Virus record (IMG/VR): IMGVR_UViG_3300031753_000039
Span: 1-22,900 of that record
Reading direction: 5' to 3' (one strand)
DNA length: 22,900 nt
From: a virus
This document shows positions 1,424 to 21,206 of this stretch, in pieces. Both the position numbers and the translations under genes were made by a program. Each line of letters starts with the position of its first letter. Positions within the stretch are counted from its first letter, which is position 1. The notes beneath the pieces are model-generated. The model was given only the letters and a program-made list of their open reading frames with translations. It was not told where the DNA came from and made no database searches.

Positions 1424-1614
1424 TGGTCAAGAAACGCCTGGCCGAAGTCACGCTGCGCAAGGAATCCATCCAGCGCCTGATGCGCGGCCAAACCGTCACC
1501 ATCCGCCTGGGCGACATCGAGCTCGAGCTGCACCTCGATCCGGCGGCGCGCCTCGGCCCCTCGGGCTCGCTCGAAGACTTGATCGCCAACATATTGAGGG
1601 CGCCGCGCGCGTGA
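1423..1614 (+). CDS. Small protein of unknown function between portal and minor head genes
   Basis: This 63-residue protein starts at an ATG overlapping the portal stop codon (TGATG), so it is translationally coupled. It is charged and mixed alpha/beta in character: a basic N-terminus, a V-T-I-R-L-G-D-I-E-L-E-L segment that should form a beta hairpin, and a short C-terminal helix. I do not recognise a family. Small genes at this place in siphovirus head modules are common and mostly uncharacterised. The overlap on both sides (its own stop overlaps the GTG of the next gene) supports it being real. Confidence 0.7.
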   Translation: MVKKRLAEVTLRKESIQRLMRGQTVTIRLGDIELELHLDPAARLGPSGSLEDLIANILRAPRA

Positions 1615-3437
1615 GTCCCGTCGGCGCGATCGCCGAGTTTTTGGAGAAAGCCCGGCGGCCGGGCTTGCTGGGCCTGGCCGGCCGAGCCATCCAGCGCAAC
1701 TGCGCGGCCGACTTGCGCAGCTACTTCCGCGAGCTGGGCACGCGGATTACGGCCATGAAGTTGGAAGAGTTGGCGCACATCGAGCGCAGTATAAGCGCCG
1801 AAACCGCGCGTCACGCGGTCGCGATGCGGATGCACAACCTGCTCCGCTCGCGCCGACCTCTGCTGCTCGGGCTGCTCCACACCCACATCTCGAGCGCGAT
1901 CCGCGCGGCCAACGCGATTCACACCCTGGCCGAAGCCGCGGACGACAGCCCGCAAGTGCCGGGCATGACGGCCGAGGTGGCCGCGGCCTATGCCGAGCTG
2001 CACGCCGGCGAGGCAGTCGCCGGGCTGGACAAGACCACCCAGCAAGCGGTCGCGGATGCAGTCGCGACCGGCATCAGCGATCGCTTAGGGGTCGATGGCA
2101 CGGCGCGACTGATCCAGGGAGTAGTCGACGGAATGAGCAGTTCGCGCGCCTTCACCATCGCCTCGACCGAGATGAACGATGCGATGAGCCAAGCCTTCCT
2201 GCGCAAGCTGGTCGCAAACGACGTGGAGTACAAGCAGTGGATTACGGGCCCGGATCCGTGCGAGGCCTGCATCGAGAACGAAGACGCCGGCGCGATCCCG
2301 GTCGACGAGAACTTCCCCAGCGGCGACGACGCCCCGCCAGCGCACCCGAATTGTGTGTGTGCCGTGGCCGGCGCGCGCGGACTAGGGTTTGGCGAGGCAG
2401 AGAAGAAGCCTCACCTGGTCGAAGTCAAAGGCTGGCCCACGGCGCCGGCGCCGCAGCCGGCACCTCTGCCCAAAGGCGACAAAGGCGAGCCCGGCGAGCC
2501 CGGCACACCTGGGCGCGATGGCAAGGACGGAAAGGATGGCCGCGCTGGAGTCGATGGACGCGACGGCGCAGCCGGAGCAGATGGCCGCGCTGGAGTCGAT
2601 GGACGCGATGGCGCAGCCGGAGCAGCTGGCCGCGATGGAGTCGACGGCCGCGATGGCAAGGACGGCCGCGACGGCGCTCGAGGTGAGACTGGCCCGCAGG
2701 GCCCGCTGCCTGCCCGTGAAGCCGTGGCCGAGGCCGTTGCCCAGGGCATCGCCGAAGTCTTTTCGGAAGCCGGCAAGCCAGGAAAGCGCAGCGCGAAGGA
2801 TCCCTTCGGGCTGGCCAAGGGCCAAGTCAACCTCAACCCCAAAGGCAAAAACTTCGTCTGGTCGACCACGCCCGGCCCGAAAGGCGACACCGGCGCCACT
2901 GGGGCGCAGGGCATGCAAGGCTGGTCGGGCCTGGATGGCGCGCAGTGGTATCAGGGCGCCGGCGCTCCGGTCGCGCTGCACCACGATGGAGACTTCTATC
3001 TCAACAAGACGAACGGCGACGTGTACGAGCAGGTTTCCGGCTCGTGGGGCTCGCCCGTCGGCAACCTCATGGGGCCGCCACAAATGCCAAGCCTAAATTT
3101 CCATCTGGTCGCGAAGCACAGCGACAACGCCAACCAGATCGCGACCGGCAGCGGCGTGCTGACCGGGGTGAATGCCGGCGGCGCCGGCTCGAGCTCGACC
3201 GTGTTCCCTGTCTTCGTGAAGCTGTACGACAGCAACGGGGCGCCCAACCTCACGACCGCGAAGCCGATCTGCGTGGCCGCGGTGCAGATGGGGCTGCAAT
3301 CGCCCGATCCTGTGCCCTCGGGCGGCATCGCGTATAGCGCCGGCCTTTACCTGCTGATCGTGAACGGCATTCAGGACACCGACGACACCCCGGTCGCGAG
3401 CGGCGACTGCAACGTCGACGTGTTCTACCACTCTTAA
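1611..3437 (+). CDS. Minor head protein fused to collagen-like repeats and a C-terminal virion domain
   Basis: Composite protein of 608 residues starting at a GTG that overlaps the previous stop. Residues 1 to about 255 look like an SPP1 gp7/Mu gpF-type head morphogenesis protein: helical, then a segment with C217-x-x-C220 and the closing H245-P-N-C-V-C motif typical of that family. Residues about 288-365 are roughly 26 consecutive Gly-X-Y triplets rich in G-R-D, G-V-D and G-K-D, and a second run of about 8 triplets lies near 421-445. A D-G-D-F-Y-L-N...G-D-V-Y-E segment follows, as often seen after collagen stalks in phage fibres. Residues about 495-608 form a domain resembling the C-terminus of the next gene product. 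The first part should act inside the head near the portal; the rest implies a trimeric stalk displayed on the particle. The single open frame shows no sign of a frameshift. Confidence 0.85.
   Translation: MSPVGAIAEFLEKARRPGLLGLAGRAIQRNCAADLRSYFRELGTRITAMKLEELAHIERSISAETARHAVAMRMHNLLRSRRPLLLGLLHTHISSAIRAANAIHTLAEAADDSPQVPGMTAEVAAAYAELHAGEAVAGLDKTTQQAVADAVATGISDRLGVDGTARLIQGVVDGMSSSRAFTIASTEMNDAMSQAFLRKLVANDVEYKQWITGPDPCEACIENEDAGAIPVDENFPSGDDAPPAHPNCVCAVAGARGLGFGEAEKKPHLVEVKGWPTAPAPQPAPLPKGDKGEPGEPGTPGRDGKDGKDGRAGVDGRDGAAGADGRAGVDGRDGAAGAAGRDGVDGRDGKDGRDGARGETGPQGPLPAREAVAEAVAQGIAEVFSEAGKPGKRSAKDPFGLAKGQVNLNPKGKNFVWSTTPGPKGDTGATGAQGMQGWSGLDGAQWYQGAGAPVALHHDGDFYLNKTNGDVYEQVSGSWGSPVGNLMGPPQMPSLNFHLVAKHSDNANQIATGSGVLTGVNAGGAGSSSTVFPVFVKLYDSNGAPNLTTAKPICVAAVQMGLQSPDPVPSGGIAYSAGLYLLIVNGIQDTDDTPVASGDCNVDVFYHS
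2535..2657 (+). repeat. 45-bp tandem repeat within the collagen-like segment
   Basis: A 45-base unit encoding five Gly-X-Y triplets (G-R-A-G-V-D-G-R-D-G-A-A-G-A-D) occurs at 2535-2579, again at 2580-2624 with one change (GACG to GATG), and then in a degenerate partial copy. The unit length is a multiple of nine, so gain or loss of a copy would lengthen or shorten the stalk without breaking frame or triplet register. Confidence 0.85.
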
Positions 3438-3462: not shown

Positions 3463-4197
3463 ATGAAACGCATCTTGCAGCTTCTCGCCGTGCTGGTGCT
3501 CGCGTCCGTCGCTGGGTTCGCCCAGCAGACGGTCCAGGTGACCGATGGCTCGAACACGATCGGCAGCGCGGCCCATCCGGTCCAAGTCTCGCTGGCCAAC
3601 ACCGGCACCAACAGCAATGCGGTTACCGTCAGCTTCGCCAACGGCCAGACCACCGCGGTCACCCAAGCCACCGGGACGAACCTGCACGCGGTCATCGACT
3701 CCGGCTCGACCACCGCGGTCACCCAAGCCACCGGGACGAACCTGCACGCGGTCATCGACTCCGGCTCGACCACCGCGGTCACCCAAGCCACAGGGACGAA
3801 CCTGCACACGGTCGTCGACTCGGGCACGATCACCGCCAACCTCGGGCCGGCCACGTCGGGCGGGCTGAGCATGACGCACTTCGTGGCCGCCGCTACCGAC
3901 AATCACACCAACGTCAAGTCCACGGCAGGCCAGCTCTACAGCGTGCACGGTTTCAACACCCTGGCCACGCCGCTCTACTTCAAGCTTTACGACAGCTCTA
4001 GCACGCCGACTGGCTGCGGTGCGACCAACCTGAAGAAAGTGATCGCGATCCAGGCCGGAACCGAATTTCTGTACACCCAGCCGCAAGGCGTCGCCTTCGC
4101 CAGCGGCATCGGCTACTGCCTGACCTCTGGCATCACCGATGCCGATGACACCGCCACCACGCTAAGCGCGGCCACGATCGACCTCGACTACAAATGA
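3463..4197 (+). CDS. Secreted virion-type domain protein with 20-residue repeats
   Basis: A protein of 244 residues with a textbook Sec signal peptide: M-K-R start, hydrophobic core L-L-A-V-L-V-L-A-S-V-A, and a predicted cut after G-F-A (about residue 20), leaving Q-Q-T at the mature N-terminus. After a T-D-G-S-N segment of a type common in phage surface proteins there are three copies of a 20-residue repeat beginning T-T-A-V-T-Q-A-T-G-T-N-L-H (residues about 63-122). The last 100 residues contain Y-F-K-L-Y-D and G-I-T-D-A-D-D-T, matching a beta-rich domain I associate with phage decoration or neck proteins and resembling the end of the minor head protein upstream. The ribosome site (GAGG at 3449-3452) is weak. 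Function unknown; export is inferred from the signal peptide. Confidence 0.8.
   Translation: MKRILQLLAVLVLASVAGFAQQTVQVTDGSNTIGSAAHPVQVSLANTGTNSNAVTVSFANGQTTAVTQATGTNLHAVIDSGSTTAVTQATGTNLHAVIDSGSTTAVTQATGTNLHTVVDSGTITANLGPATSGGLSMTHFVAAATDNHTNVKSTAGQLYSVHGFNTLATPLYFKLYDSSSTPTGCGATNLKKVIAIQAGTEFLYTQPQGVAFASGIGYCLTSGITDADDTATTLSAATIDLDYK
3648..3791 (+). repeat. Perfect 60-bp tandem repeat
   Basis: Bases 3661-3720 and 3721-3780 are identical, and the perfect 60-base periodicity extends from about 3648 to 3791 (2.4 copies). It then continues in a third copy with a few substitutions up to about 3832. Each unit encodes 20 residues, so copy number changes would keep the frame. Exact identity at synonymous positions indicates recent duplication or ongoing homogenisation. 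Confidence 0.95.
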
Positions 4198-5684
4198 AGT
4201 TTCTGAAACAGACAGCACTCCTCGCGGTCTTGCTGGCGGCGGCTTGCGCTTCGGCGCAGCAGACCATCCGCATGACCGATGGGGTGAATGGCACGGCCGG
4301 GCTGAAGTCGGCGAGCACCCCGGCGGCCCAGTCGGATGTCTCCCAAGTGGTGGCGCTCTCGCCCAACAACACCGGCATCGCAGTGAACCTGCCCGTGATC
4401 GCCAACAAGGCGGCGAACAACGTCGGCGGGGCCACGGTCAAGACTCTGACCGACACCATCACCGCGACCAAAGCGGGGAATTCGCTAATCGTGGCGCTGT
4501 GCGCCGGCGAACCGCTGCCCAACGGCAGCACCGTAGTGGCGACTTTGACCGAAACCGGCGGCAGCGATACCTGGACGCTGGCCGCCGCCGTGGCCAACAG
4601 CACAACTTTCTACTGCGGCATCTACTACGCGACCAACATCACCGCCGGAGTCACGGCGGCGATCATTACCTACTCCGGCGCGTCCGCGGTCAACACCACG
4701 ATCGCGATGGAAACCTGGGAAGTGTCCGGGCTGATCGCACTCTCGCCGCAAGTCTTCGATACGAGCGCCACGGGCACTGGCACCTCGACCGCGCCCTCGG
4801 CTGGTCCCATGAATCCCGACAAGCCGAACGACTACGCCTTCGCCGCCTTCGGCATCGGCACCGCGGCCCAGACCGTCACCCTCGGCGGCACCGGAACCTG
4901 GGTGAACGACTCAGGCCAGGTGAATCCGGCCTCGGCGAGCGGACTCTTCAGCTTCGTCGGCGCTTCCCAGTTCCGCAACAACGATGGGCCACTCACCGCG
5001 GCGGGCACCATTGGATCCGAGCCTTGGGTAGTCGCGACTGCCATGTTTTCCGTGGTGGCGGTCAGTGTCGACGGCCGGGTGATCCTCTACGACGGCACCA
5101 CGCCGGCCGGCGTGGTCGCCGCGAACAATGCGCTGAAGACCGACCACACCTCGGTGGCAGGCGCGGCAATTTCAACCGCGGCCAGCGGCACCCAACTAGT
5201 CGGCGTGCAGGGCCATGCCGGCGCGAACTTTGACGGCGCGACGGGTGCGGCAGTACCGCCGAATGCGGTGCTGTTTGGCGGCACGGATGGCACCAACACG
5301 CGCGCCCCTTACATGGATCCGTGCGCCTACAACGCCTGGACCTACTACTACGTCAACGTCGCCGTGAACACGCAGATCGCGGGCGCGGCCGGGGCCGCGA
5401 AAAATTACTACATCTGCCAGATCTCGATTCTGCCCGTCGCCGGCGCGGCCAACGTAAACCTGGTATCGAGTGCGACTGCGGGCAACGCCTGCGCCACCTC
5501 GACCACGGCGCTGCTGACCGGCGGCACCACTGCGGCCTCGGGCGCAAGCCTTCCCATTAACGGCGGCTTCGTGTGGCCAGCCTCAGGCCGGGCCTGGGCA
5601 TCGACCCAAGCCACCAATCACGCTTTCTGCATTTTCGCCTCGGCCGCGGTTACCGGGGTGATCGCCTACGCGGGGCCACTGTGA
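4194..5684 (+). CDS. Secreted two-domain protein of phage surface type
   Basis: A protein of 496 residues whose ATG overlaps the preceding stop (ATGA), indicating coupled translation. The N-terminus is a Sec signal peptide (M-K-F-L-K-Q, hydrophobic core, A-S-A then Q-Q-T at about residue 23). The mature start Q-Q-T-I-R-M-T-D-G-V-N echoes Q-Q-T-V-Q-V-T-D-G-S-N in the previous protein, so the two N-terminal regions look paralogous. Residues about 80-275 resemble a beta-sandwich module seen elsewhere in this window (pattern: N-S-L-I-V-A, then a W-T strand, then Y-Y-A-x-N-I-T-A-G-V). Residues about 370-496 resemble a separate C-terminal domain frequent in phage fibre or decoration proteins, with paired cysteines and G-G-F-V-W-P-A-S-G. 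No catalytic motif is visible. A cysteine in the signal region is a poor lipobox. Confidence 0.78.
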   Translation: MKFLKQTALLAVLLAAACASAQQTIRMTDGVNGTAGLKSASTPAAQSDVSQVVALSPNNTGIAVNLPVIANKAANNVGGATVKTLTDTITATKAGNSLIVALCAGEPLPNGSTVVATLTETGGSDTWTLAAAVANSTTFYCGIYYATNITAGVTAAIITYSGASAVNTTIAMETWEVSGLIALSPQVFDTSATGTGTSTAPSAGPMNPDKPNDYAFAAFGIGTAAQTVTLGGTGTWVNDSGQVNPASASGLFSFVGASQFRNNDGPLTAAGTIGSEPWVVATAMFSVVAVSVDGRVILYDGTTPAGVVAANNALKTDHTSVAGAAISTAASGTQLVGVQGHAGANFDGATGAAVPPNAVLFGGTDGTNTRAPYMDPCAYNAWTYYYVNVAVNTQIAGAAGAAKNYYICQISILPVAGAANVNLVSSATAGNACATSTTALLTGGTTAASGASLPINGGFVWPASGRAWASTQATNHAFCIFASAAVTGVIAYAGPL

Positions 5685-5686
5685 CC

Positions 5687-6433
5687 ATGAAGCGCTTTCT
5701 TCTAGCTGCTGCCTTGCTGCTCCTGGCCGCGGCTTCGCCTGCCTGGGCCACCTGGACGCTGACCCAGCATCCCATTGGAACCTGCACCGTCAGCTCCACT
5801 ACCTGTGGAGTTACCTTGACCTCCACCGGGGCCGGCCATGTCCTGATCGCAATGGCCGGCTACGGAAGCCTGTCGAGCATCACCGTGTCGGGCGTAACAG
5901 CTGGCGCGTGCTCGGCATCCTGGGTGCATTGCCCCAGCTGTCACGGCAACGATGCTTCCTCCGGCAAGCAAGTTGACGGCTGGTACTGCCTGAACAGCGC
6001 CAGCGGCATCACCAACATTACTTTTACTCTGAGTGCCACCCAGAGCGGTGGGCCTTCCTGGAACGCTTACGTTTTTGAACTTTCTTCCACTACCACTTTC
6101 GTCATCGACAGCACCAACTCTGTCGATGACTCGACCACCTGCACGGTTTGTGCAGGAGTGACTCTCACCCTTACCGGCAGCAACGATGCCATCATGCAGG
6201 TCTACGGCGCAGGGAGTAGTGCTCCCTCGAGCATCAGCTCGCCTTACGTTTTTCAAAACGCCGGCAGTGGGACCTCTTCCAATGCGTCCTTGATTAACAG
6301 TGGTTCGGGAACTGCTCCGAACTGGACTTCCAGCGTCACCGGGAAGGGTGCCGGTGGGGCCATTGCGATCAAAGAGAATGCCGCCGTGACCTGTCACAAC
6401 GCCTTGTCGCTGCTGGGCGCAGGCTGCGCGTGA
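5687..6433 (+). CDS. Secreted cysteine-rich beta-sandwich protein
   Basis: A protein of 248 residues starting at the ATG 2 bases after the previous stop. This start is preferred over an in-frame ATG at 5573 because it alone yields a clean signal peptide (M-K-R-F-L-L-A-A-A-L-L-L-L-A-A-A-S-P-A-W-A). The mature part is one copy of the beta-sandwich module found in four other proteins here (G-H-V-L-I-A-M-A-G-Y near residue 50; a second half beginning T-L-T-G-S-N-D-A-I-M-Q-V). It carries 10 cysteines, an even number that fits disulfide bonding after export, and includes a C-P-S-C-H motif near residue 82. The DNA is visibly more A/T-rich than its neighbours (the line 6061-6120 is about 45% GC) and holds several strong inverted repeats. 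These are signs of separate ancestry. Function unknown. Confidence 0.75.
   Translation: MKRFLLAAALLLLAAASPAWATWTLTQHPIGTCTVSSTTCGVTLTSTGAGHVLIAMAGYGSLSSITVSGVTAGACSASWVHCPSCHGNDASSGKQVDGWYCLNSASGITNITFTLSATQSGGPSWNAYVFELSSTTTFVIDSTNSVDDSTTCTVCAGVTLTLTGSNDAIMQVYGAGSSAPSSISSPYVFQNAGSGTSSNASLINSGSGTAPNWTSSVTGKGAGGAIAIKENAAVTCHNALSLLGAGCA
5792..5812 (+). repeat. Inverted repeat inside the cysteine-rich gene (first)
   Basis: AGCTCCAC (5792-5799) can pair with GTGGAGTT (5805-5812), including one G-T wobble, around the 5-base loop TACCT. It lies in coding sequence and no run of T follows, so it is not a classical terminator. It is listed because three further strong hairpins occur in the same gene. 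Confidence 0.6.
6101..6130 (+). repeat. Perfect 11-bp inverted repeat inside the cysteine-rich gene
   Basis: GTCATCGACAG at 6101-6111 is the exact reverse complement of CTGTCGATGAC at 6120-6130, with an 8-base loop. It is the longest of the hairpins in this gene and encodes V-I-D-S-T-N-S-V-D-D. No T tract follows. Confidence 0.85.
6138..6227 (+). repeat. Two further hairpins inside the cysteine-rich gene
   Basis: CCTGCAC (6138-6144) pairs perfectly with GTGCAGG (6150-6156) around the loop GGTTT. AGGGAG (6211-6216) pairs with CTCCCT (6222-6227) around TAGTG. Both have 5-base loops like the one at 5792. Together with the 11-bp repeat at 6101 they make this gene unusually structured. Confidence 0.7.
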
Positions 6434-6457
6434 AGTTCTGAAACTCGAAAGGATCCC

Positions 6458-7852
6458 ATGAAAAGCCTTCCCTTGAAGCCCGTGGACGAGGCGGCCAAAG
6501 CCGACTCGTTCGACTCCATCCGCTCCGCGGTCTCGGATGCGATCAACGCCAACATCCGCGCCGGCGTCGACATGGACTGCGACGACGACGGCACCCAGGA
6601 CGCCATGGCCGGCGAGTATGCCTGGGTGCAAGACATCTTCCCTGGCCAGGTCGTGTATTCGATGTGTGGCTCGATGTTCCAGTGCGACTACTCGATCGAC
6701 GCCGACGGCGACGTGCAGTTGGGGAAGCCAGCGGAAGTCGAAATCAGCTACACCCCGATCACCGACGGCGACGTCAGCGCGGAATCCTTCCGCGTGCTGG
6801 TCGGCTCGGCGATTCCCTTTCAAGAGTCGGCCTACGACGCCGCCTCGGGCAAGCTCACCATGACCGTCATCCGGCCAGGGCTCAACAAGTCGAAGGCCCG
6901 CTACTATCCCGCCGCGACCCTAAAGCGCGACTACGCGGTCTTTGAGAATGCCAAGATGTTCGCGGACCACCAAAGCGAGAAAGAGGCCAAGGACCGGCCG
7001 GAAGGTTCGGTGAACAACTGGGTGGCGTCGATCAAAAAAGTGTGGCCCGAGTCGGACGGCACCATCAAGGCCGAGGCCATGGTCATCGACCCGCCCTTTA
7101 AGGCCAAGCTCGACACGCTCAACAAGGCCGGCTTGCTGCACGAGATGGGTGTCTCCATCCGGGCGATCGGCGAGGCCAGCGAGCAAGAGCGCGACGGCGT
7201 GACCACGAACGTGGTCGAGTCGCTGATCGCGGCACGTTCCGTAGATTTCGTCACCTATGCCGGCGCGGGCGGCCAGGTAGAGGCGATGGAGTCAGCACCG
7301 CTAGACAACCAGTGGGATGTGGACTTGGTGACGGAAGCGGCTCTCCGCAAACGTCGCCCGGACCTGATCCGCCTGGTTGAAAAACATGCCCAGGAGATCG
7401 CAATGAAGTCTGTAGAACAGCAACTCGCCGAATCGCAAACCCAGCTCGGGGCGCTCACCAAAGAGAACGCCGAGCTGAAAACCAAGTTCGAGGAAGCGCA
7501 GAAGAAAGCCGAAGCGGCCCACAAGACGGCCAGCCGCGCGGCCGTCGAGGTCGAGCTCACCAAGCAACTCGCCGAATCCAAGCTGCCCGAGATCGCGCAG
7601 GCCCGGCTGCGCAAGCAGTTCGCGGAAGCGGAGAAGGCCGACGGCATCAAGGAAGCGATTGCCGAAGAGCTCGAGTACCTGAAGAAAGTCGGCGCCACGA
7701 CCAAGACGCCGGCCCCGAAGAACCTGGGCGCCGCGGCCAACGGCACCACGGAAGAGTCGCAGCAGGAAGAGAAGCCCAACCTCGAGGAAGCGTTCGCGCT
7801 GCTTCCCGGCATGTCCAAGGAAGATGCCAAGGTCGCAGCCACCAGTCTGTAA
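6458..7852 (+). CDS. Capsid maturation protease fused to scaffolding domain
   Basis: A protein of 464 residues with a ribosome site AAAGGA just upstream. Residues about 90-300 look like a phage prohead serine protease: a candidate catalytic histidine H171 in M-F-A-D-H, a candidate nucleophile S233 in M-G-V-S-I-R-A, and a conserved-looking S261-V-D-F-V-T-Y-A-G-A-G-G end to the fold. From about residue 316 to 415 the sequence is a charged coiled coil (Q-Q-L-A-E-S-Q-T-Q-L...), followed by a Pro/Glu-rich tail, as in scaffold or delta domains. The protein would assemble inside the prohead, guide capsid assembly, then cleave itself and its partners. Its position before decoration and major capsid genes fits. 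Which residues are catalytic is inferred from family patterns. Confidence 0.85.
   Translation: MKSLPLKPVDEAAKADSFDSIRSAVSDAINANIRAGVDMDCDDDGTQDAMAGEYAWVQDIFPGQVVYSMCGSMFQCDYSIDADGDVQLGKPAEVEISYTPITDGDVSAESFRVLVGSAIPFQESAYDAASGKLTMTVIRPGLNKSKARYYPAATLKRDYAVFENAKMFADHQSEKEAKDRPEGSVNNWVASIKKVWPESDGTIKAEAMVIDPPFKAKLDTLNKAGLLHEMGVSIRAIGEASEQERDGVTTNVVESLIAARSVDFVTYAGAGGQVEAMESAPLDNQWDVDLVTEAALRKRRPDLIRLVEKHAQEIAMKSVEQQLAESQTQLGALTKENAELKTKFEEAQKKAEAAHKTASRAAVEVELTKQLAESKLPEIAQARLRKQFAEAEKADGIKEAIAEELEYLKKVGATTKTPAPKNLGAAANGTTEESQQEEKPNLEEAFALLPGMSKEDAKVAATSL
7403..7852 (+). CDS. Nested in-frame scaffold protein (internal start)
   Basis: An ATG at codon 316 of the protease gene is preceded by AGGAG (7392-7396) with a 6-base spacer, a better ribosome site than many genes in this window have. 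Initiation there would give a 149-residue protein consisting only of the coiled-coil scaffold and its acidic tail. The start falls at the junction between protease and scaffold domains. The arrangement is the same as lambda Nu3 nested within C, which makes separate scaffold expression likely. It is predicted from the ribosome site, not demonstrated. Confidence 0.6.
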   Translation: MKSVEQQLAESQTQLGALTKENAELKTKFEEAQKKAEAAHKTASRAAVEVELTKQLAESKLPEIAQARLRKQFAEAEKADGIKEAIAEELEYLKKVGATTKTPAPKNLGAAANGTTEESQQEEKPNLEEAFALLPGMSKEDAKVAATSL

Positions 7853-7941
7853 GCCCCACCCCCGGAAATAGCTAAACAAAATCGTTCTACCCGACCCTGG
7901 GCGGCTCGCTGCCTTCCCTGGGCCAAAGGAGAAGTGTTGCC

Positions 7942-8382
7942 ATGAAGAACTTTGTACTGACCGGAGACAACCTCAGTTTCCTGGCCTCGCAGATCGTCAA
8001 CCCGGCGCACGTGACGGGCGATACCTACACCAACCTGGTGGGTACCGGCGAAGGCCTCACCGTTCCAATCAACTTGGTCGAAACTGGCGACCCCGTAGTC
8101 ATCGGGCGCATCGTCGGCGTGGCCAATAACGACGCGCTGCAATCGACCGACACCGTAGTGGTCTCCACGCGCGGCGTCTACAACCTGGCCGTGAAGTGCA
8201 TCCACCACGCGATCACCGTCGGGGAAACCGTCTACATCGACCCGGTGACCGCCGTCGTGAGCGACGACTCCACCGCCGTGCCTTTCGGCTGCGCGCTGGC
8301 CGCAGTCGCGGGCGGTGCGACCACCACCATCAACGTCAAGCTGTTCGGACAAACGCCAGGAGCAGCGGGCGCGAATAGCTAA
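7942..8382 (+). CDS. Capsid decoration protein, DUF2190-like
   Basis: A protein of 146 residues with a strong ribosome site AAAGGAG at 7925-7931. The sequence follows the DUF2190 pattern: N-terminal strand, G-D-P-V-V-I-G-R-I-V-G-V-A-N-N-D-A, then V-V-V-S-T-R-G-V-Y-N-L, A-I-T-V-G-E-T-V-Y-I-D, G-C-A-L-A-A-V-A-G-G-A, and T-I-N-V-K-L-F-G. Members of this family are encoded just before the major capsid gene in many phages and are thought to be head decoration proteins. The 89 bases before it hold no gene and no convincing promoter. Confidence 0.8.
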   Translation: MKNFVLTGDNLSFLASQIVNPAHVTGDTYTNLVGTGEGLTVPINLVETGDPVVIGRIVGVANNDALQSTDTVVVSTRGVYNLAVKCIHHAITVGETVYIDPVTAVVSDDSTAVPFGCALAAVAGGATTTINVKLFGQTPGAAGANS

Positions 8383-8392
8383 GCAGTTCCGT

Positions 8393-8424
8393 GAGGCCTG
8401 CCCAGAGGCCTCTTCTCATTTTTT
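8393..8424 (+). terminator. Terminator-like hairpin before the major capsid gene
   Basis: GAGGCCT (8393-8399) and AGGCCTC (8406-8412) form a perfect 7-bp stem with the 6-base loop GCCCAG. Seven bases later comes a run of six T (8419-8424). This fits a Rho-independent terminator or attenuator. The gap between stem and T run is longer than ideal, so it may be partial, or act in mRNA processing and stability. It would separate decoration-protein from capsid transcripts. Confidence 0.6.
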
Positions 8425-8478
8425 GGCGACCACCACAACACACCAACCGGCCCTGTGCCGGCCAAGGAGAAAAGAACA

Positions 8479-9654
8479 ATGAAAGACTTCCTAAGTCTGA
8501 TCGAGGAAGGCGACAAGCTGGAATCCAGTCTCTCCGACGTCCGGCACCGCATTCCGCAGTTCGATACGAAGCTCGTGAAGTTCATCGAGCTGGTCGCCAA
8601 CAAACACGGCTTCAGCACCGCGAAGCGCACCTATCTCTTGAAGGAAGCGGAGTCGACCGCGGACTTCCCTTACCTCTTCGGGACCGTATTGGAGCGGCAA
8701 CTTTACGCCAAATACAAGGCCGCGGACCCGGATTGGAAGGCTTACATCAAAACCGGCACGCAGAACGACTTTCGGCCCACGTGGTTGATCGGCGTGAACG
8801 GGTTGCAAGGTGTGCTGCCAGCAGTCGCACTCCGCGGCGAGTACAAGAACGACGCCGCGCTGGTCGACGGCCGGGTATTCATCAACCTCAGCAAGTACGG
8901 CCGCGAGTTCGGGTTGGCCTGGGAGGCCTTAATTAACGATGACCTCGGCGCCTTCTCCGACCTGGCCGAGCGCTTCGCCACGGCCGCCATGCGGTCGGAG
9001 TACAAGTTCGCGACGCAGCTCTACTCGTCTGCGAGCGGCCCGCATGCCAGCCTGTTCGGTGCGACCATCGCACATCCCCTCTACACCGCGAACATCACCA
9101 ACCTGTTCTCCGGTGCGGGTGCCACCTTCTCCATCACGAACTTGGCCGCCGCGGCCAGCGCGATGCGGCGCTTCGTCGACTACGACGGTGAGCCCGTGAT
9201 CTTCGACGGGTTCGAGCTCATCGTCCCGCCGGCGCTCGAGATCCCGATGTTGCAGGCCTTGAACCCTGCCAACATCATCCAGTCGGGCGGCGATTCCACG
9301 GCTTCCGCCAAGCCGCAGATCCGCAGCTCGTCCAACACCGTGCCTCAGCTCAACATCACCGGGCACGTCAACCCCTACTTGCCGATCGTCGACACCAGCG
9401 GAAACCAGAATAAAACCTGGTACCTGTTCGGCAAGCTCACCAACTCCGGCTACGCCGCGCGGATCAACTTCCTGCGCGGGCACGAGTCGCCCGAGCTGTG
9501 CATGAAGAACCCGAACAAGATCGCACTCGGGGGAGCAACCATGTCCCCGCTCGAGGGCGACTACGAGACCGACTCCATCCGTTGGAGGATCCGCCACATC
9601 TTTGGCGGCGTCCAGGTCGATCCCAACTACGCTTCGGCATACGTCGGCGCGTAA
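8479..9654 (+). CDS. Major capsid protein
   Basis: A protein of 391 residues and the expected shell subunit of the head. The ATG at 8479 is chosen because AAGGAG lies at 8464-8469; an upstream in-frame GTG (8455) would place that site inside the gene. The protein lacks a long N-terminal propeptide but has HK97-like features: a helical N-terminus with R-T-Y-L-L-K-E-A, a central A-A-S-A-M-R-R-F helix followed by D-Y-D-G-E-P-V-I-F-D-G-F-E-L-I-V-P-P-A-L-E, a pattern typical of Mu gpT-like and related capsids, and a C-terminal strand ending I-R-H-I-F-G-G-V-Q-V-D-P. Its order after protease and decoration genes supports the call. Confidence 0.88.
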   Translation: MKDFLSLIEEGDKLESSLSDVRHRIPQFDTKLVKFIELVANKHGFSTAKRTYLLKEAESTADFPYLFGTVLERQLYAKYKAADPDWKAYIKTGTQNDFRPTWLIGVNGLQGVLPAVALRGEYKNDAALVDGRVFINLSKYGREFGLAWEALINDDLGAFSDLAERFATAAMRSEYKFATQLYSSASGPHASLFGATIAHPLYTANITNLFSGAGATFSITNLAAAASAMRRFVDYDGEPVIFDGFELIVPPALEIPMLQALNPANIIQSGGDSTASAKPQIRSSSNTVPQLNITGHVNPYLPIVDTSGNQNKTWYLFGKLTNSGYAARINFLRGHESPELCMKNPNKIALGGATMSPLEGDYETDSIRWRIRHIFGGVQVDPNYASAYVGA

Positions 9655-11391: not shown

Positions 11392-11801
11392 TGGCGATCG
11401 GCGCCCACGTGACCATGAACCTGCGCGCCGGCGCCGCTGCGCTCGAGGTCAAGACCGTAATCCTGGACGCGACCCGCGAGGTGTTCGACGAGGACATCGT
11501 GCCCACCGCGAAAGAGCTCTCCCCGGTCACTCCGGAAGGCTACGCGCGCAACCTGGAACTCAAGGCTGAAGGCAAACTCAGCCGGCCGGCCATGGGCACC
11601 GGGCACAACCGGCGCTCAATCGACAGTGTGGTGAATCCGAGCGACGCCGGGCCCGAGGCCGAGCTCTTCACGCAGAGCGGATACGGCGGCTACCTCGAAG
11701 TCGGCACCTCGCGCATGCGCGCCCAGCCCTACATCTACCCGGCATTCGAGCAACACATCGGGAAGCTGCCGCTGCGGGTGAAAGAGAAAATCGGTGGTTG
11801 A
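11391..11801 (+). CDS. HK97 gp10-like tail completion/connector protein
   Basis: A protein of 136 residues with ATG overlapping the preceding TGA. The hallmark is near the C-terminus: Y-G-G-Y-L-E-V-G-T-S-R-M-R-A-Q-P-Y-I-Y-P-A-F-E, a near-consensus HK97 gp10 signature (E-x-G-T-S-x-M-x-A-x-P-F-x-x-P-A). An earlier P-V-T-P-E-G-Y...R-S-I-D-S-V-V segment matches the same family. Members help join head and tail, next to the tail terminator gene as here. Confidence 0.85.
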   Translation: MAIGAHVTMNLRAGAAALEVKTVILDATREVFDEDIVPTAKELSPVTPEGYARNLELKAEGKLSRPAMGTGHNRRSIDSVVNPSDAGPEAELFTQSGYGGYLEVGTSRMRAQPYIYPAFEQHIGKLPLRVKEKIGG

Positions 11802-12237
11802 CGTCAACCTGCTCGTGCGCGACTACCTGCTCGGCCAGGCTTCGGTCACCAACCTGCTGGGCACCAACGCCAACGGCTCGATCTATGCGTCTTACGACTT
11901 GCCCGAGCACTTCGACCCCAAGCTCGGGCCAGGGATTCAGATCTTCCGCGCCGGCGGGCCAGGGGCACATTCCGAAATCCTCGCGCTGGTCGACGCGCGC
12001 ACCCAGGTGAAGGTCTGGGCCGACGTCGAAAAGTCGCTACTGGCCTCGCAAGTCTACAGCGCGATCTTCCAGGTGCTGCACGGCGCCTGCATGGTCACGC
12101 TCGGCGACGGCACCATCATCCGGGCGCTCGAGGTGGCTGCCCCGCAAGACATGACCGACCCCGAGACCGGCTGGGCGTTCGTCTTCGCCTTCTACATGGT
12201 GATGGCGCGGCCCAATCCCGGCTACCTCGGGTCCTAA
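11794..12237 (+). CDS. Tail terminator-like protein
   Basis: A protein of 147 residues, GTG start overlapping the previous gene by 8 bases. Features are an N-terminal helix (L-L-V-R-D-Y-L-L-G-Q-A-S-V-T-N-L-L-G) followed by I-Y-A-S-Y-D-L-P, a beta strand with T-Q-V-K-V-W-A-D, a helix (L-A-S-Q-V-Y-S-A-I-F-Q-V-L-H-G), and a closing strand with W-A-F-V-F-A-F-Y-M-V-M. This is the alpha/beta layout of DUF3168/lambda gpU-type tail terminators, which cap the growing tube and bind the head. The position directly before the tail tube gene agrees. Confidence 0.75.
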   Translation: MVDVNLLVRDYLLGQASVTNLLGTNANGSIYASYDLPEHFDPKLGPGIQIFRAGGPGAHSEILALVDARTQVKVWADVEKSLLASQVYSAIFQVLHGACMVTLGDGTIIRALEVAAPQDMTDPETGWAFVFAFYMVMARPNPGYLGS

Positions 12238-17066: not shown

Positions 17067-19136
17067 ATGATCCCGGCGACCACCACCTTCCAGACCTCGC
17101 TCGCGGCCTTCCTGCGCGGCACCATCCCGTACCTGATCCAGATCCCCGGCTACACCCGCGCCTTCTCGAACGTGGCCGGCATGACCTACGACCCGCTCTT
17201 CGTGGTCGATTCCGGCTCGCAGTGCAACTCCTCGGGCGGGCTCAGCTTGCAGCCGGCCGCGGTGCAGCTGGGCGTGAATTCGGTCAACTTCGGCGCCACC
17301 ACGGGCACGGCGAAAGCGCCCGCGGCGGGCAACCTGCTGCTGGCCTTCATGGCCTCGTCCAGCACCGGGCCGGCGCCCTCGATCTCGGACACCAACGGCA
17401 ACGTGTGGACGGCGCTGCAAACCTACGCCGGCGGCGCCAGCGGCCTGTGCGTGTGGTGGGCCACGGCCAACGGCGCCGGCATCGACACCGTGAACTTCGT
17501 CTCCGGCAGCAACAACGGCAACTCGTTCTTCGCTGTGCTCGAAATCGACGCGCGCGCCGGCGCCTACGCCACGGCCTACAACTCCGGGACGAGTGCGACT
17601 GCCTCGATCACGATCGGCGGCTACAGCACGAGCTTCGCCCTACAGGGCTCGACCAGCTGGCAGGTCTTCGCCATCCAGTGGGATGCGGCCGGCACGCTCA
17701 ACAAGACCTTCCGGCTGGCCTTTCTCTACGGCGACCTCAACCACGCCGGCACCTTGCCGACGGGCTGGATCCAGGCCGACTTGCAATACTTTCCGGGCAA
17801 CGCTTGCAACAGCGGCGGGCGCACGGGCGCCGGCCTAAGCTTCCTGAATTTCTCCGACTACCTGGCCGTGCCCTGGCTAGTCTCACTCGACCCCCTCAGT
17901 CAGACGGTGAACGATCTCGACGGCGGCGCCGACACCACCAACTTGATGTTCCACGTGCAAGACCGCGGCGGCGCCATCACCAGTGACTTCCCGAACTTCG
18001 TCTTCGAAGGTTCGAAGGTGCTTCTGAACACCTCGTTCACCGGCCTGGGGCGCGCCGACTACTGCACCATCTGGACCGGCTTCATCGACAGCGTGGCCAG
18101 CGACAACTTCAACCTCGAGTATTACTTCAGCTGCCTGGACACCTCGATCAAGCTGGCCCAGGTGATCTATCAGACCGCCGATGACGGCGGCGTGACTTCT
18201 TCCGGCCACCTGCGCACCCTCAACGCCAACCCGATGGACATCCTGCTCGACATTTTGCAGAACCAGATCGTGAACGCGGACGGCACCAAAGGCTTGCCCG
18301 CCGCGCTGATCGACTCCGCGACGATTACCGCCTACCGCGACGGCCCGCTGGCCGGCCTCAGCTTCCTGTTCCACTTGAGTTCGCCGCCGGCCGCCCTCGA
18401 CTTCATCAAGAACCAGATCATGAAGCCGCTCGGCGGGTATCTCTTCGTGAACGCGCTCGGCCAGGTCACGGTCGCGTTCTTCTACCCACTCACCGGGCCG
18501 GTCGCAGCCATGACCCTGGGCCCGGCGAACTGGACTTCGATCCCATCGGCCGAGCAGACCGAGATGGTGAACACGGTCGAATACCAGTTCGACAAGGACG
18601 ACGGCGACTCGACCGCCAGCGGCAACTACCTGCAAGACATCGTGGAGGAGTACCAGCCGTCGATCGCGAAATATGGCATCTACGGCGAACACGTGGTGCA
18701 AGCCGATGGGCTGCGCTCGGCCTTCCTCGGCTACTTCATCGCCACGTTCATGTCCTGGCTAATCTTTTTCCGCTACGGCTTCAAGAACCTGAAGTTCGAT
18801 GGGAACGCCGCCGACTCGCTGTGGTCGACCATGCGGCTCGAGTCGGGCGATGTAGTCGCGGTCACCCATCCCCAAGTGCCGGACCGCGCCGCCGGCGTGA
18901 TGGGCATCACGGGCAAGCAGTTTCAGATCCTGGATAAGAAGTGGGATTTCACCGCCGGCCTGCTCACCTTCACCATGATCGACGCCAGCTACCTGGCGAA
19001 ATTCGGCTTCTTTGAGATCGCACCCAACGCGGAAGCGGACTACACCTCGGCCTCGGGCGCGGACCAGGCGCTCTATATGTTCGAAAGCGAAGCGGGCTTT
19101 TACTCGAACGGCAACCCCGGCAACATCCTCGGCTAA
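17067..19136 (+). CDS. Tail hub protein with inserted beta-sandwich module
   Basis: A protein of 689 residues. Residues 1-60 look like the first strands of a tail hub (L-I-Q-I-P-G-Y-T-R-A-F...Y-D-P-L-F). Residues about 61-250 resemble the recurring surface module: G-N-L-L-L-A-F-M, I-S-D-T-N-G-N-V-W-T-A-L, W-W-A-T-A-N-G-A-G-I-D-T-V. From about 266 the hub resumes (V-S-L-D-P-L-S-Q-T-V-N-D-L-D-G-G, C-T-I-W-T-G-F-I-D, N-P-M-D-I-L-L-D-I-L) and ends with L-E-S-G-D-V-V-A-V-T-H and V-M-G-I-T-G-K-Q-F-Q-I-L-D-K-K-W, typical of gpL/gp27-like or Tal-type hub proteins. It should sit at the tail tip, with the insert projecting outwards. Hub identity rests on gene order and pattern. Confidence 0.72.
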   Translation: MIPATTTFQTSLAAFLRGTIPYLIQIPGYTRAFSNVAGMTYDPLFVVDSGSQCNSSGGLSLQPAAVQLGVNSVNFGATTGTAKAPAAGNLLLAFMASSSTGPAPSISDTNGNVWTALQTYAGGASGLCVWWATANGAGIDTVNFVSGSNNGNSFFAVLEIDARAGAYATAYNSGTSATASITIGGYSTSFALQGSTSWQVFAIQWDAAGTLNKTFRLAFLYGDLNHAGTLPTGWIQADLQYFPGNACNSGGRTGAGLSFLNFSDYLAVPWLVSLDPLSQTVNDLDGGADTTNLMFHVQDRGGAITSDFPNFVFEGSKVLLNTSFTGLGRADYCTIWTGFIDSVASDNFNLEYYFSCLDTSIKLAQVIYQTADDGGVTSSGHLRTLNANPMDILLDILQNQIVNADGTKGLPAALIDSATITAYRDGPLAGLSFLFHLSSPPAALDFIKNQIMKPLGGYLFVNALGQVTVAFFYPLTGPVAAMTLGPANWTSIPSAEQTEMVNTVEYQFDKDDGDSTASGNYLQDIVEEYQPSIAKYGIYGEHVVQADGLRSAFLGYFIATFMSWLIFFRYGFKNLKFDGNAADSLWSTMRLESGDVVAVTHPQVPDRAAGVMGITGKQFQILDKKWDFTAGLLTFTMIDASYLAKFGFFEIAPNAEADYTSASGADQALYMFESEAGFYSNGNPGNILG

Positions 19137-19139
19137 CCC

Positions 19140-21206
19140 ATGTCTCAACCTGTTTTCGTCGGCGACACCAAAAACAGCGGCTCGAGCGTTTCCTCGCTGG
19201 TTCTGACCCGCACCTGCACCGTGCTCAACACGCTGGTCGTGGGCATCGCGCTGGCCGATGGCAGCCAGTCGGTTTCCGGCATCACCGACTCGGCGGGTTC
19301 GGTCATGGGCGTGCCCGTCAACCACTGGCAGCCGATTGGCGGCAACCGCTTCGGCGCGGTGCGACTGGAATACTGGGCCTGCCGCTCGATCGCCGCGATC
19401 ACTTCGCTGACCATCACGCTCACCGGCGCCCAGTACATCCGCGCCATGGTGGCCGAGTATTCCGGAGTTTCCGCCTTCGGCGTGACCGGCGCGCTGCAAG
19501 TCAACGCCTACCAGAATCCCCACCCCACCAACAACCTGGTGCTGATCGTTTCGGAAGAAGCGGTCTCTTCCCAGCTCATGGTGACGTTCTTTGCCGTGGG
19601 CTCGATCAACTTCGGCGGGACCCTCGTCGGCATCCAGCGCGACCAGACGCAATTCTCCGGCTCGCTGCCGGGCCTCTCGCTCGCCGAGCAAGGCACGGCC
19701 GACGCCAACAACCTGTTGGACACCGAAATCGCAGTCGCGCAACTGGCGACCGCGGTCAACCTGGCGGCCTCGAACCTGCAAGGCATCACCCTGCTGCTTT
19801 CGGGCGGGCTCACCTTGCGCTCGCAGCCTGGCTTCTGCGACATCCCCGATTCGAGCTTCGCGTCCGGGCAAGTCTGCCGCGGCATCAACCTGGCCAAGAT
19901 CTCGGAAAATGCCGAGCTGGGCATGGTCCGCTTCGAGGTGTTCTACGGCACCTATCGCGACGGCGACACCGTGAACCTTCCGGTCTCGACCGTCGACTCC
20001 TACTCGTACACCCGCGAAGAGTGCCTGTACGTCTGGGCGCCGAAGTCGACGGTGAACCCGGCCACGGGCTGGGCCTCGGCGGAAGAAGCCCTCTGGTACT
20101 GCAACTGGCAAGTCGACCAGTGGCAATCCTCACTCTCGCCCGGCGGCGGCGTGCATTGCGAGGAGTGGTACACCTGGATCCACTCTTCGAAGCCCAACAG
20201 TCGCACCACGGACGGGATTCTCGCCGTCTTCACCATCGCGCAGCGCCGGCAGCGCGACCTGATCCTGGCGACCACGCCCAGCTACAGCGACATCGCCGAT
20301 ACCACCTTCTACCAGGACGAACCGCTCGAGCAGGCCGACGCCCAGCAGATGAACGAGAACGCGAAGTTTGCCGTGGTCTCGACCGAGGCGATCTACATGG
20401 GCGAGTTCGTCGACGCCGACACCGTGCCGCGGCCGATCTCGCCGGCCGACGGCTACGTCTATGCTTACGCCAACTGCGTGTTCATCCCCTGCTGGCGTTG
20501 GACCTACCAGAAGACCAGCTACACCGCGCCCACCAGCGGGCTGTTCCTGCAGCGGCTCGAGTCGAACGTCACCTATGCGACCGGCGTGGTGCATTGCGAC
20601 ACCTTCCTCGATCACGTGGCCTCGAATTCGAACATCGACGCCATGGCCGGCCGGGTCGCAGTCTTCGCCATCTGCACCCGGCCGGTGACGGGCACGCCCT
20701 TTAGCCTGGGCAACGAATTTTCCGAAGTCGACCTCACCGAATTCCAGCCCGGCAACCCGCTGCCGCATGAGCTCTTGCAGCAGGTCAACGACAACACCCA
20801 GGAAGCGATCAGCGTGCCGGAGATCTTCACCCACCTGGCGCAGACCAACGGCTACACCGTGCCCTTGCCGGTGAGCCCGCGCGACGGCTACCAGTATGCC
20901 CGCTCGGAGATCATCGTCCTCTGGTCGATTCACTCGACCGGGCCGGACTCGGCCGAGCGCCTGATCCTGTTCGAGGAGTACGTCGACCAGTCCACGGGAG
21001 TCGCGACCATCGCGGAGTTCCGCCTGCCCCACGGCGGGGTCGGAACCTTATACAACGACGGCTCGCTCGACATCGTGGTGATTGCCATTCGCTCCGGCAG
21101 CGGCCGGCTGCCCTCGGGTGCGAGCTCGTCGACGGTCACGCAGCCTGGCGATCTCGGCAGCCCCGCGGCCGGCGGCGTGGCCACGGTCACCGTGAACGGA
21201 GTCTGA
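19140..21206 (+). CDS. Tail fibre/receptor-binding-type protein with three internal repeats
   Basis: A protein of 688 residues starting 3 bases after the hub stop. Residues 1 to about 210 appear to be another copy of the beta-sandwich module (L-N-T-L-V-V-G-I-A-L, I-T-D-S-A-G, a strand with A-M-V-A-E-Y-S-G-V). From about 240 to 660 three diverged repeats of roughly 140 residues follow. Each has an N-E-N-A-K or N-D-N-T-Q helix start, a G-x-Y-x-x-G-D-T-V-x-x-P-V-S-x-x-D-G-Y-x-Y strand pair, and an I-L-A-V-F-T-I-A or V-A-V-F-A-I closing strand. Repeats of this type are common in tail tip proteins. Receptor binding is inferred from position and architecture. Confidence 0.7.
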   Translation: MSQPVFVGDTKNSGSSVSSLVLTRTCTVLNTLVVGIALADGSQSVSGITDSAGSVMGVPVNHWQPIGGNRFGAVRLEYWACRSIAAITSLTITLTGAQYIRAMVAEYSGVSAFGVTGALQVNAYQNPHPTNNLVLIVSEEAVSSQLMVTFFAVGSINFGGTLVGIQRDQTQFSGSLPGLSLAEQGTADANNLLDTEIAVAQLATAVNLAASNLQGITLLLSGGLTLRSQPGFCDIPDSSFASGQVCRGINLAKISENAELGMVRFEVFYGTYRDGDTVNLPVSTVDSYSYTREECLYVWAPKSTVNPATGWASAEEALWYCNWQVDQWQSSLSPGGGVHCEEWYTWIHSSKPNSRTTDGILAVFTIAQRRQRDLILATTPSYSDIADTTFYQDEPLEQADAQQMNENAKFAVVSTEAIYMGEFVDADTVPRPISPADGYVYAYANCVFIPCWRWTYQKTSYTAPTSGLFLQRLESNVTYATGVVHCDTFLDHVASNSNIDAMAGRVAVFAICTRPVTGTPFSLGNEFSEVDLTEFQPGNPLPHELLQQVNDNTQEAISVPEIFTHLAQTNGYTVPLPVSPRDGYQYARSEIIVLWSIHSTGPDSAERLILFEEYVDQSTGVATIAEFRLPHGGVGTLYNDGSLDIVVIAIRSGSGRLPSGASSSTVTQPGDLGSPAAGGVATVTVNGV

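Follow-up and report, generated by a model that had tools for sequence, protein, structure and literature searches.

Three adjacent genes for predicted exported proteins in a phage structural operon

Structural operons of tailed phages are assumed to encode cytoplasmic products, and the locus described here raises the question of what three consecutive genes with predicted signal peptides are doing among head genes. The window analyzed is the entire IMG/VR virus record of 22.9 kb. As the original prediction described, the genes SP1 (positions 3463 to 4197, 244 amino acids [aa]), SP2 (4194 to 5684, 496 aa), and SP3 (5687 to 6433, 248 aa) are tightly packed on the plus strand between the minor head and protease genes, with a 4-base overlap (ATGA) between SP1 and SP2 and a gap of 2 bases between SP2 and SP3. 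The neighboring genes, all on the same strand, are those of the portal protein (26 to 1423, phrog_10963), a MuF-type minor head protein directly upstream of SP1 (1611 to 3437; PF04233, E = 1.6e-7), and, at the right border, a probable capsid maturation protease (6458 to 7852), assigned from a weak match to phrog_207 (E = 3e-4) plus synteny. They are followed by the major capsid protein gene (8479 to 9654), recognized by synteny and conservation and used for finding relatives, and a tail terminator homolog (11800 to 12237, phrog_123).

Searches of SP1 to SP3 against Pfam and PHROGs gave zero matches, and no sequence-related protein was found among solved structures. With the query P0002, no viral relatives were found by the pattern method, and with P0002 and P0003 none among cultured phages. 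The C-terminal 125 aa of SP2 resemble an SP-cassette protein of one relative (45% over 127 aa), and SP3 has one relative, in the SP cassette of locus L023 (46% over 108 aa). The third-position GC content (GC3) of SP3 is lower than that of the neighboring genes. SP1 ends in a jelly-roll knob (3859 to 4194, plus strand) with two cysteines, C185 and C219. Ahead of the knob it contains three near-identical 60-bp tandem repeats (3664 to 3843, plus strand, TTAVTQATGTNLHAVIDSGS) with the motif QATGTNLH at 3664, 3724, and 3784; this motif also occurs in many other phage proteins, mostly without a signal peptide.

Predicted signal peptides of type I

Each of the three N-termini has a charged n-region, a hydrophobic core, and an A-x-A-type cleavage site. 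The predicted signal peptides, all on the plus strand, are MKRILQLLAVLVLASVAGFA before QQ in SP1 (3463 to 3522), MKFLKQTALLAVLLAAACASA before QQ in SP2 (4194 to 4256), and MKRFLLAAALLLLAAASPAWA before TW in SP3 (5687 to 5749). The calls were made with a home-made rule that scores the n-, h-, and c-regions and the (-3, -1) positions, and not with SignalP; in its calibration, the rule accepted all six known type I signal peptides tried, as well as one lipoprotein, and rejected RecA and EF-Tu. All three products passed, which bears out the earlier claim that each carries a Sec signal peptide and answers the check proposed for it, here run as a rule-based score. None of the other plus-strand genes of the window passed, and the background was one call in 347 homologs of portal, MuF, protease, capsid, connector, and tail proteins. 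When the same N-termini were shuffled, 2.5 to 4.6% passed, and three signal-peptide genes would be consecutive among about 22 genes with a probability of about 0.013 by position alone (20/1540).

The signal peptides of SP1 to SP3 have type I sites and show no lipobox. The A/QQ residues at the cleavage site are invariant across nine SP1 homologs. The SKSFAGSS cassette domain is 66 to 84% identical among loci, and the signal peptides in front of it have diverged in sequence and are still called by the rule. By their n-, h-, and c-regions and the A-X-A site, SP1 to SP3 are predicted to be proteins of the Sec/signal peptidase I type.

Cysteine parity of the mature proteins

Exported proteins in many bacteria favor even cysteine counts because of disulfide formation (PMC7678975). 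The mature parts of SP1, SP2, and SP3 contain 2, 6, and 10 cysteines, respectively. In 18 phage loci, the window and related phages, the mature parts of signal-peptide proteins had an even number of two or more cysteines in 52 cases, an odd number in 5, and none in 2, versus 64 even, 71 odd, and 57 without cysteine among the proteins of the same loci that lack a signal peptide (Fisher's exact test, P = 2.5e-9; P = 3e-4 with one protein per homology cluster). Exported copies of the knob had 0, 2, or 4 cysteines in nine of nine genomes, and the virion-borne copies described below had a single unpaired cysteine in five of the nine. The parity lends independent, if indirect, support to export.

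The candidate host, G001, showed no such bias in its own signal-peptide-like proteins (9 even and 15 odd in a 300-kb sample), so even parity is not a universal mark there. Four DsbA-family matches were found in G001, and neither DsbB nor VKOR was found in it. Taken at the level of sequence, export of SP1 to SP3 is supported by the signal peptides, the cysteine parity, and the conservation of signal peptides in diverged homologs.

An accessory cassette at several sites of late operons

Relatives were collected via the capsid and portal proteins. The site between the MuF and protease genes is occupied by signal-peptide genes in the window and in L025, whose capsid protein is 87% identical and which has a gene for an 806-aa signal-peptide protein there. 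Directly 3' of that gene lies an open reading frame (ORF) resembling an SGNH hydrolase (L025, 6883 to 7569, GDSITVG). The block is absent between the MuF and protease genes of L026, L027, L030, L078, L086, L087, L089, and L095 to L098, in which the MuF protein is short, without an extension, and the protease gene comes directly next. This presence or absence at one site among close relatives is the pattern by which a moron is recognized.

Signal-peptide genes were found at other late sites as well. L026, with an 82% identical capsid protein, has three of them between the tail terminator (phrog_123) and tail tube genes, a site that also carries them in L027, L115, L117, and L125. The run lies between the portal and protease genes in L013, 3' of the capsid gene in L124, and, as three genes, ahead of the terminator in L122 (the closure-terminator site). 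L117 and L125, in which five or more such genes separate the terminator gene from that of the tail tube, come from a second family of phages, one whose capsid is of the HK97 type (phrog_10) and which also has head closure Hc1 and a major tail protein. Only the beginning of a run is seen in L120 and L123, both of them fragments.

The search of related phages for the three-gene block gave a divided result: related signal-peptide genes exist at several sites, and close relatives lack the block at this one. The block had been assigned to the head gene cluster, and that assignment has to be dropped because of this distribution. As judged from these loci, the SP block is an accessory, mobile late-operon cassette and not core head machinery.

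A virion-borne twin of the SP1 knob

The original prediction overlooked that the gene adjoining SP1 encodes a twin of its knob. The MuF protein consists of a core without a signal peptide (1611 to about 2381), a collagen repeat (2475 to 2708, PF01391), and a C-terminal graft of linker plus knob (2943 to 3434) whose knob (3093 to 3428, all plus strand) is homologous to that of SP1 (E = 3e-8). The mature domains had been described as resembling virion surface modules, which is supported for SP1 with its homolog of a MuF-fused domain and is not established for SP2 and SP3, which matched no family or fold. Linker and knob of the window match the C-terminal grafts of tail terminators in L026 (41%) and L027 (39%), with E about 1e-31. 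In L026, L027, and L115, the graft is on the tail terminator and not on MuF, and the SP genes come next.

In a profile search, an exported and a non-exported knob occurred together in nine genomes, with adjacent genes in eight. The non-exported knob is on MuF in the window, on proteins at the tail-terminator position in L026, L115, L116, L120, L123, and L125, at the N-terminus of the head-tail adaptor in L124, and in a stand-alone protein in L013. Knobs have thus been grafted onto at least three different structural proteins, in addition to the stand-alone form. No conserved stretch was found when a mixed knob alignment was used as a search. A MuF homolog in L085 (1796 to 3469) has an intein-like insert, ending in VTHNC, just ahead of a conserved C-V-C-A-V end.

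Mean identity was 54% among exported knobs, 46% among virion-borne knobs, and 36% across the two types (n = 9), and the two types co-travel (Mantel r = 0.42, P = 0.018, n = 9). Since each type is more alike within itself than across, the two lines are old and move together. The exported and virion-borne knobs of one genome are no closer (37%) than those of different genomes (36%). The pairing has exceptions: L027 has the graft, but its exported protein is of the SP2 type; L025 and L122 have neither an SP1-type knob nor a graft; the cassettes of L025, L122, and L126 are without knobs; and most cassette proteins besides SP1 have no virion twin.

Fold, distribution, and probable host of the knob

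The SP1 knob was modeled with AlphaFold2 from 19 sequences as a sandwich of beta-strands only (pLDDT about 95). The fold matched 124 predicted phage proteins at E of ≤0.001 (best E = 9e-13), many of them Caudoviricetes proteins without an assigned function. Matches in the PDB (plant-virus coat jelly rolls, the HFTV1 turret, Ena fibers, and the BC2L-C lectin) had E values of about 1e-3 or weaker and indicate a generic jelly roll only. A by-eye suspicion that one jelly-roll module is common to SP2, SP3, and the tail proteins at 17067 to 19136, 19140 to 21206, and 22669 onward was dropped because the hhalign probabilities of 0.3 to 8% were not significant. PM2 P2, the best fold match of the third cassette protein, was left unused, the model being of low confidence (pLDDT 62).

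Among cultured phages, the proteins that contain the knob are unannotated and lack a signal peptide. Among 396 Acidobacteriota genomes searched, it was present in one, and that match is a phage contig, almost identical to L027, from the bin of a Bryobacterales genome. The host is therefore probably an acidobacterium, although phage contigs can be misbinned. Integrase-family recombinases are encoded by four carriers of knob cassettes, so these may be temperate.

Possible roles of the exported proteins

Signal peptides, cysteine parity, cassette mobility, knob homology, and knob pairing were computed; the final location of the proteins, their ligands, and the benefit are what we infer. Our preferred explanation, held tentatively, is that the SP proteins are soluble, disulfide-folded binders acting on the cell surface, debris, or matrix. 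The window's three genes may then be its copy of a mobile cassette, carried in late operons, that encodes exported binding proteins specific to phages, a proposal put forward with similar caution. SP1 to SP3 would be translated alongside the virion genes, exported by Sec, cleaved, and probably disulfide folded outside the cytoplasm. On the particle, the collagen stem of MuF would display the virion version of the SP1 knob, a putative binding point near the portal vertex. The cassette proteins would reach the periplasm, be freed at lysis, and bind the same ligands as the virion knob or related ones, such as envelope, glycan, debris, or matrix, so that progeny would be spared trapping on, or readsorption to, infected cells and debris. 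The occlusion logic would be that of T5 llp, a partial precedent.

Several observations count against soluble binders. The SP proteins have no outer-membrane anchor and may therefore remain periplasmic before lysis. The within-genome knobs, being no closer than between-genome ones, give no sign of tracking one ligand and, as a sequence comparison, argue mildly against a tracked common ligand. Cassettes without knobs, and the scarcity of virion twins among cassette proteins, also weigh against this explanation.

The main competing reading is that the proteins dock onto virions once the cell has lysed. In this two-compartment assembly, which we regard as possible but doubtful, the SP proteins are appendage subunits that fold in an oxidizing compartment and wait in the periplasm; the docking step itself, of the SP1 knob onto the neck-grafted knob at cell lysis, is judged equally doubtful. 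Two orthologous knob lines traveling together are what partner subunits would give, neck or portal-vertex proteins carry the graft, which in most cases directly adjoins the SP genes, and SP1 is built of repeats followed by a knob. However, the partners would have to bind while both undergo dilution, we know of no precedent in tailed phages for docking of exported subunits after lysis, and it is common for SP proteins to have no knob and for cassettes to have no graft (L025 and L122); the cassette proteins that lack a knob speak against a general docking role. That a tailed-phage virion is finished outside the cytoplasm, by periplasmic, disulfide-folded appendages that dock during lysis onto a homologous domain, fused by the cassette to a protein of the neck, is an unlikely proposal.

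Less likely again, the genes could be accessory exported morons independent of the virion, encoding matrix adhesins or envelope modifiers, with the knob likeness due to domain reuse only. The accessory and mobile nature of the cassette, the recombinases of the possibly temperate carriers, and the SGNH-like ORF beside the SP gene of L025 would fit, but this reading does not explain why pairing with a virion graft is so strict, the 4-base overlaps and the location in the late operon link expression to the production of virions, and the knob was not found in 395 of the 396 Acidobacteriota genomes. It is very improbable that the N-termini are hydrophobic segments of cytoplasmic structural proteins and not working signal peptides: the rule-based predictor and the absent parity bias in the host sample leave room for this, against which stand the cysteine parity of the phage proteins, the false-positive rate of 1/347, and signal-peptide features kept at differing N-termini of proteins whose mature parts are 66 to 84% identical.

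Comparison with known systems

Accessory genes for exported products, exclusion lipoproteins, and extensions of MuF are all known already. In T5, llp adjoins the receptor-binding gene pb5, and Llp blocks the receptor (PMC9586334). Llp, like SP1 by prediction, is an exported phage-encoded protein whose gene lies beside that of a virion binding protein (for SP1, the knob as a putative binder). It is a small lipoprotein expressed early, whereas the SP proteins are larger, soluble, and encoded in runs of two to six in a late operon. Exclusion lipoproteins of the Llp/Cor type have a lipobox, in contrast to the type I signal peptides of SP1 to SP3, and SP1 differs from Llp and these lipoproteins in sharing a domain with a virion protein.

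Phage morons, such as lom and bor of lambda, resemble the SP cassette in being accessory, in encoding exported products, and in their insertion among structural genes. The cassette differs in its several tightly packed, presumably cotranscribed genes for exported proteins and in the twin domain fused to the neighboring virion gene. MuF proteins with C-terminal extensions include MuF toxins (PMC5576092), which, like the MuF protein of the window, carry a C-terminal domain on an N-terminal MuF head protein. The window extension consists of collagen and jelly-roll knob only, no toxin domain was found in it, and its graft moves to other structural proteins. Caulobacter KSC gp046, S2B gp004c, and Octadecabacter DB2_15 have the same knob domain as SP1; these stand-alone proteins, in which no signal peptide was found, are encoded near tail-fiber, terminase, or lysis genes.

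No description of exported virion-like proteins in tailed phages, and none of a comobile virion graft plus exported homolog in late operons, was found in the literature searched, which covered few subscription journals. The exported twin of a virion domain suggests that phages have a means, so far undescribed, of acting beyond the cell. The structural operons of several lineages of soil phages include a mobile block of predicted exported proteins, which has as its partner a homologous domain fused to the particle. If the proposals hold, phages would either release soluble versions of their own binding modules that control adsorption around the lysing cell or finish their particles once lysis has occurred. 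Both readings are testable with the sequences at hand, and the knob can serve as a marker for finding more such systems.

Further signal-peptide genes in the collected phages

The third cassette protein of L026 (12392 to 13150) and L117 (7453 to 8190) ends in a conserved basic tag, KRRKLxRLGV. Small signal-peptide proteins of 123 to 192 aa are encoded upstream of the terminase region in the window relatives L083 (at 2583), L088 (at 4934), and L091 (at 3705). A T7-like phage (L005, major capsid protein phrog_212) has, a short distance past the capsid gene, five signal-peptide genes in a row (4955 to 8874), with no knob. In L020, five Sec-type genes in a row are adjoined by a gene (433 to 1329) whose N-terminus is twin-arginine-like (MKRRNFIKLAAQA), so the Tat route may serve some phages as well.
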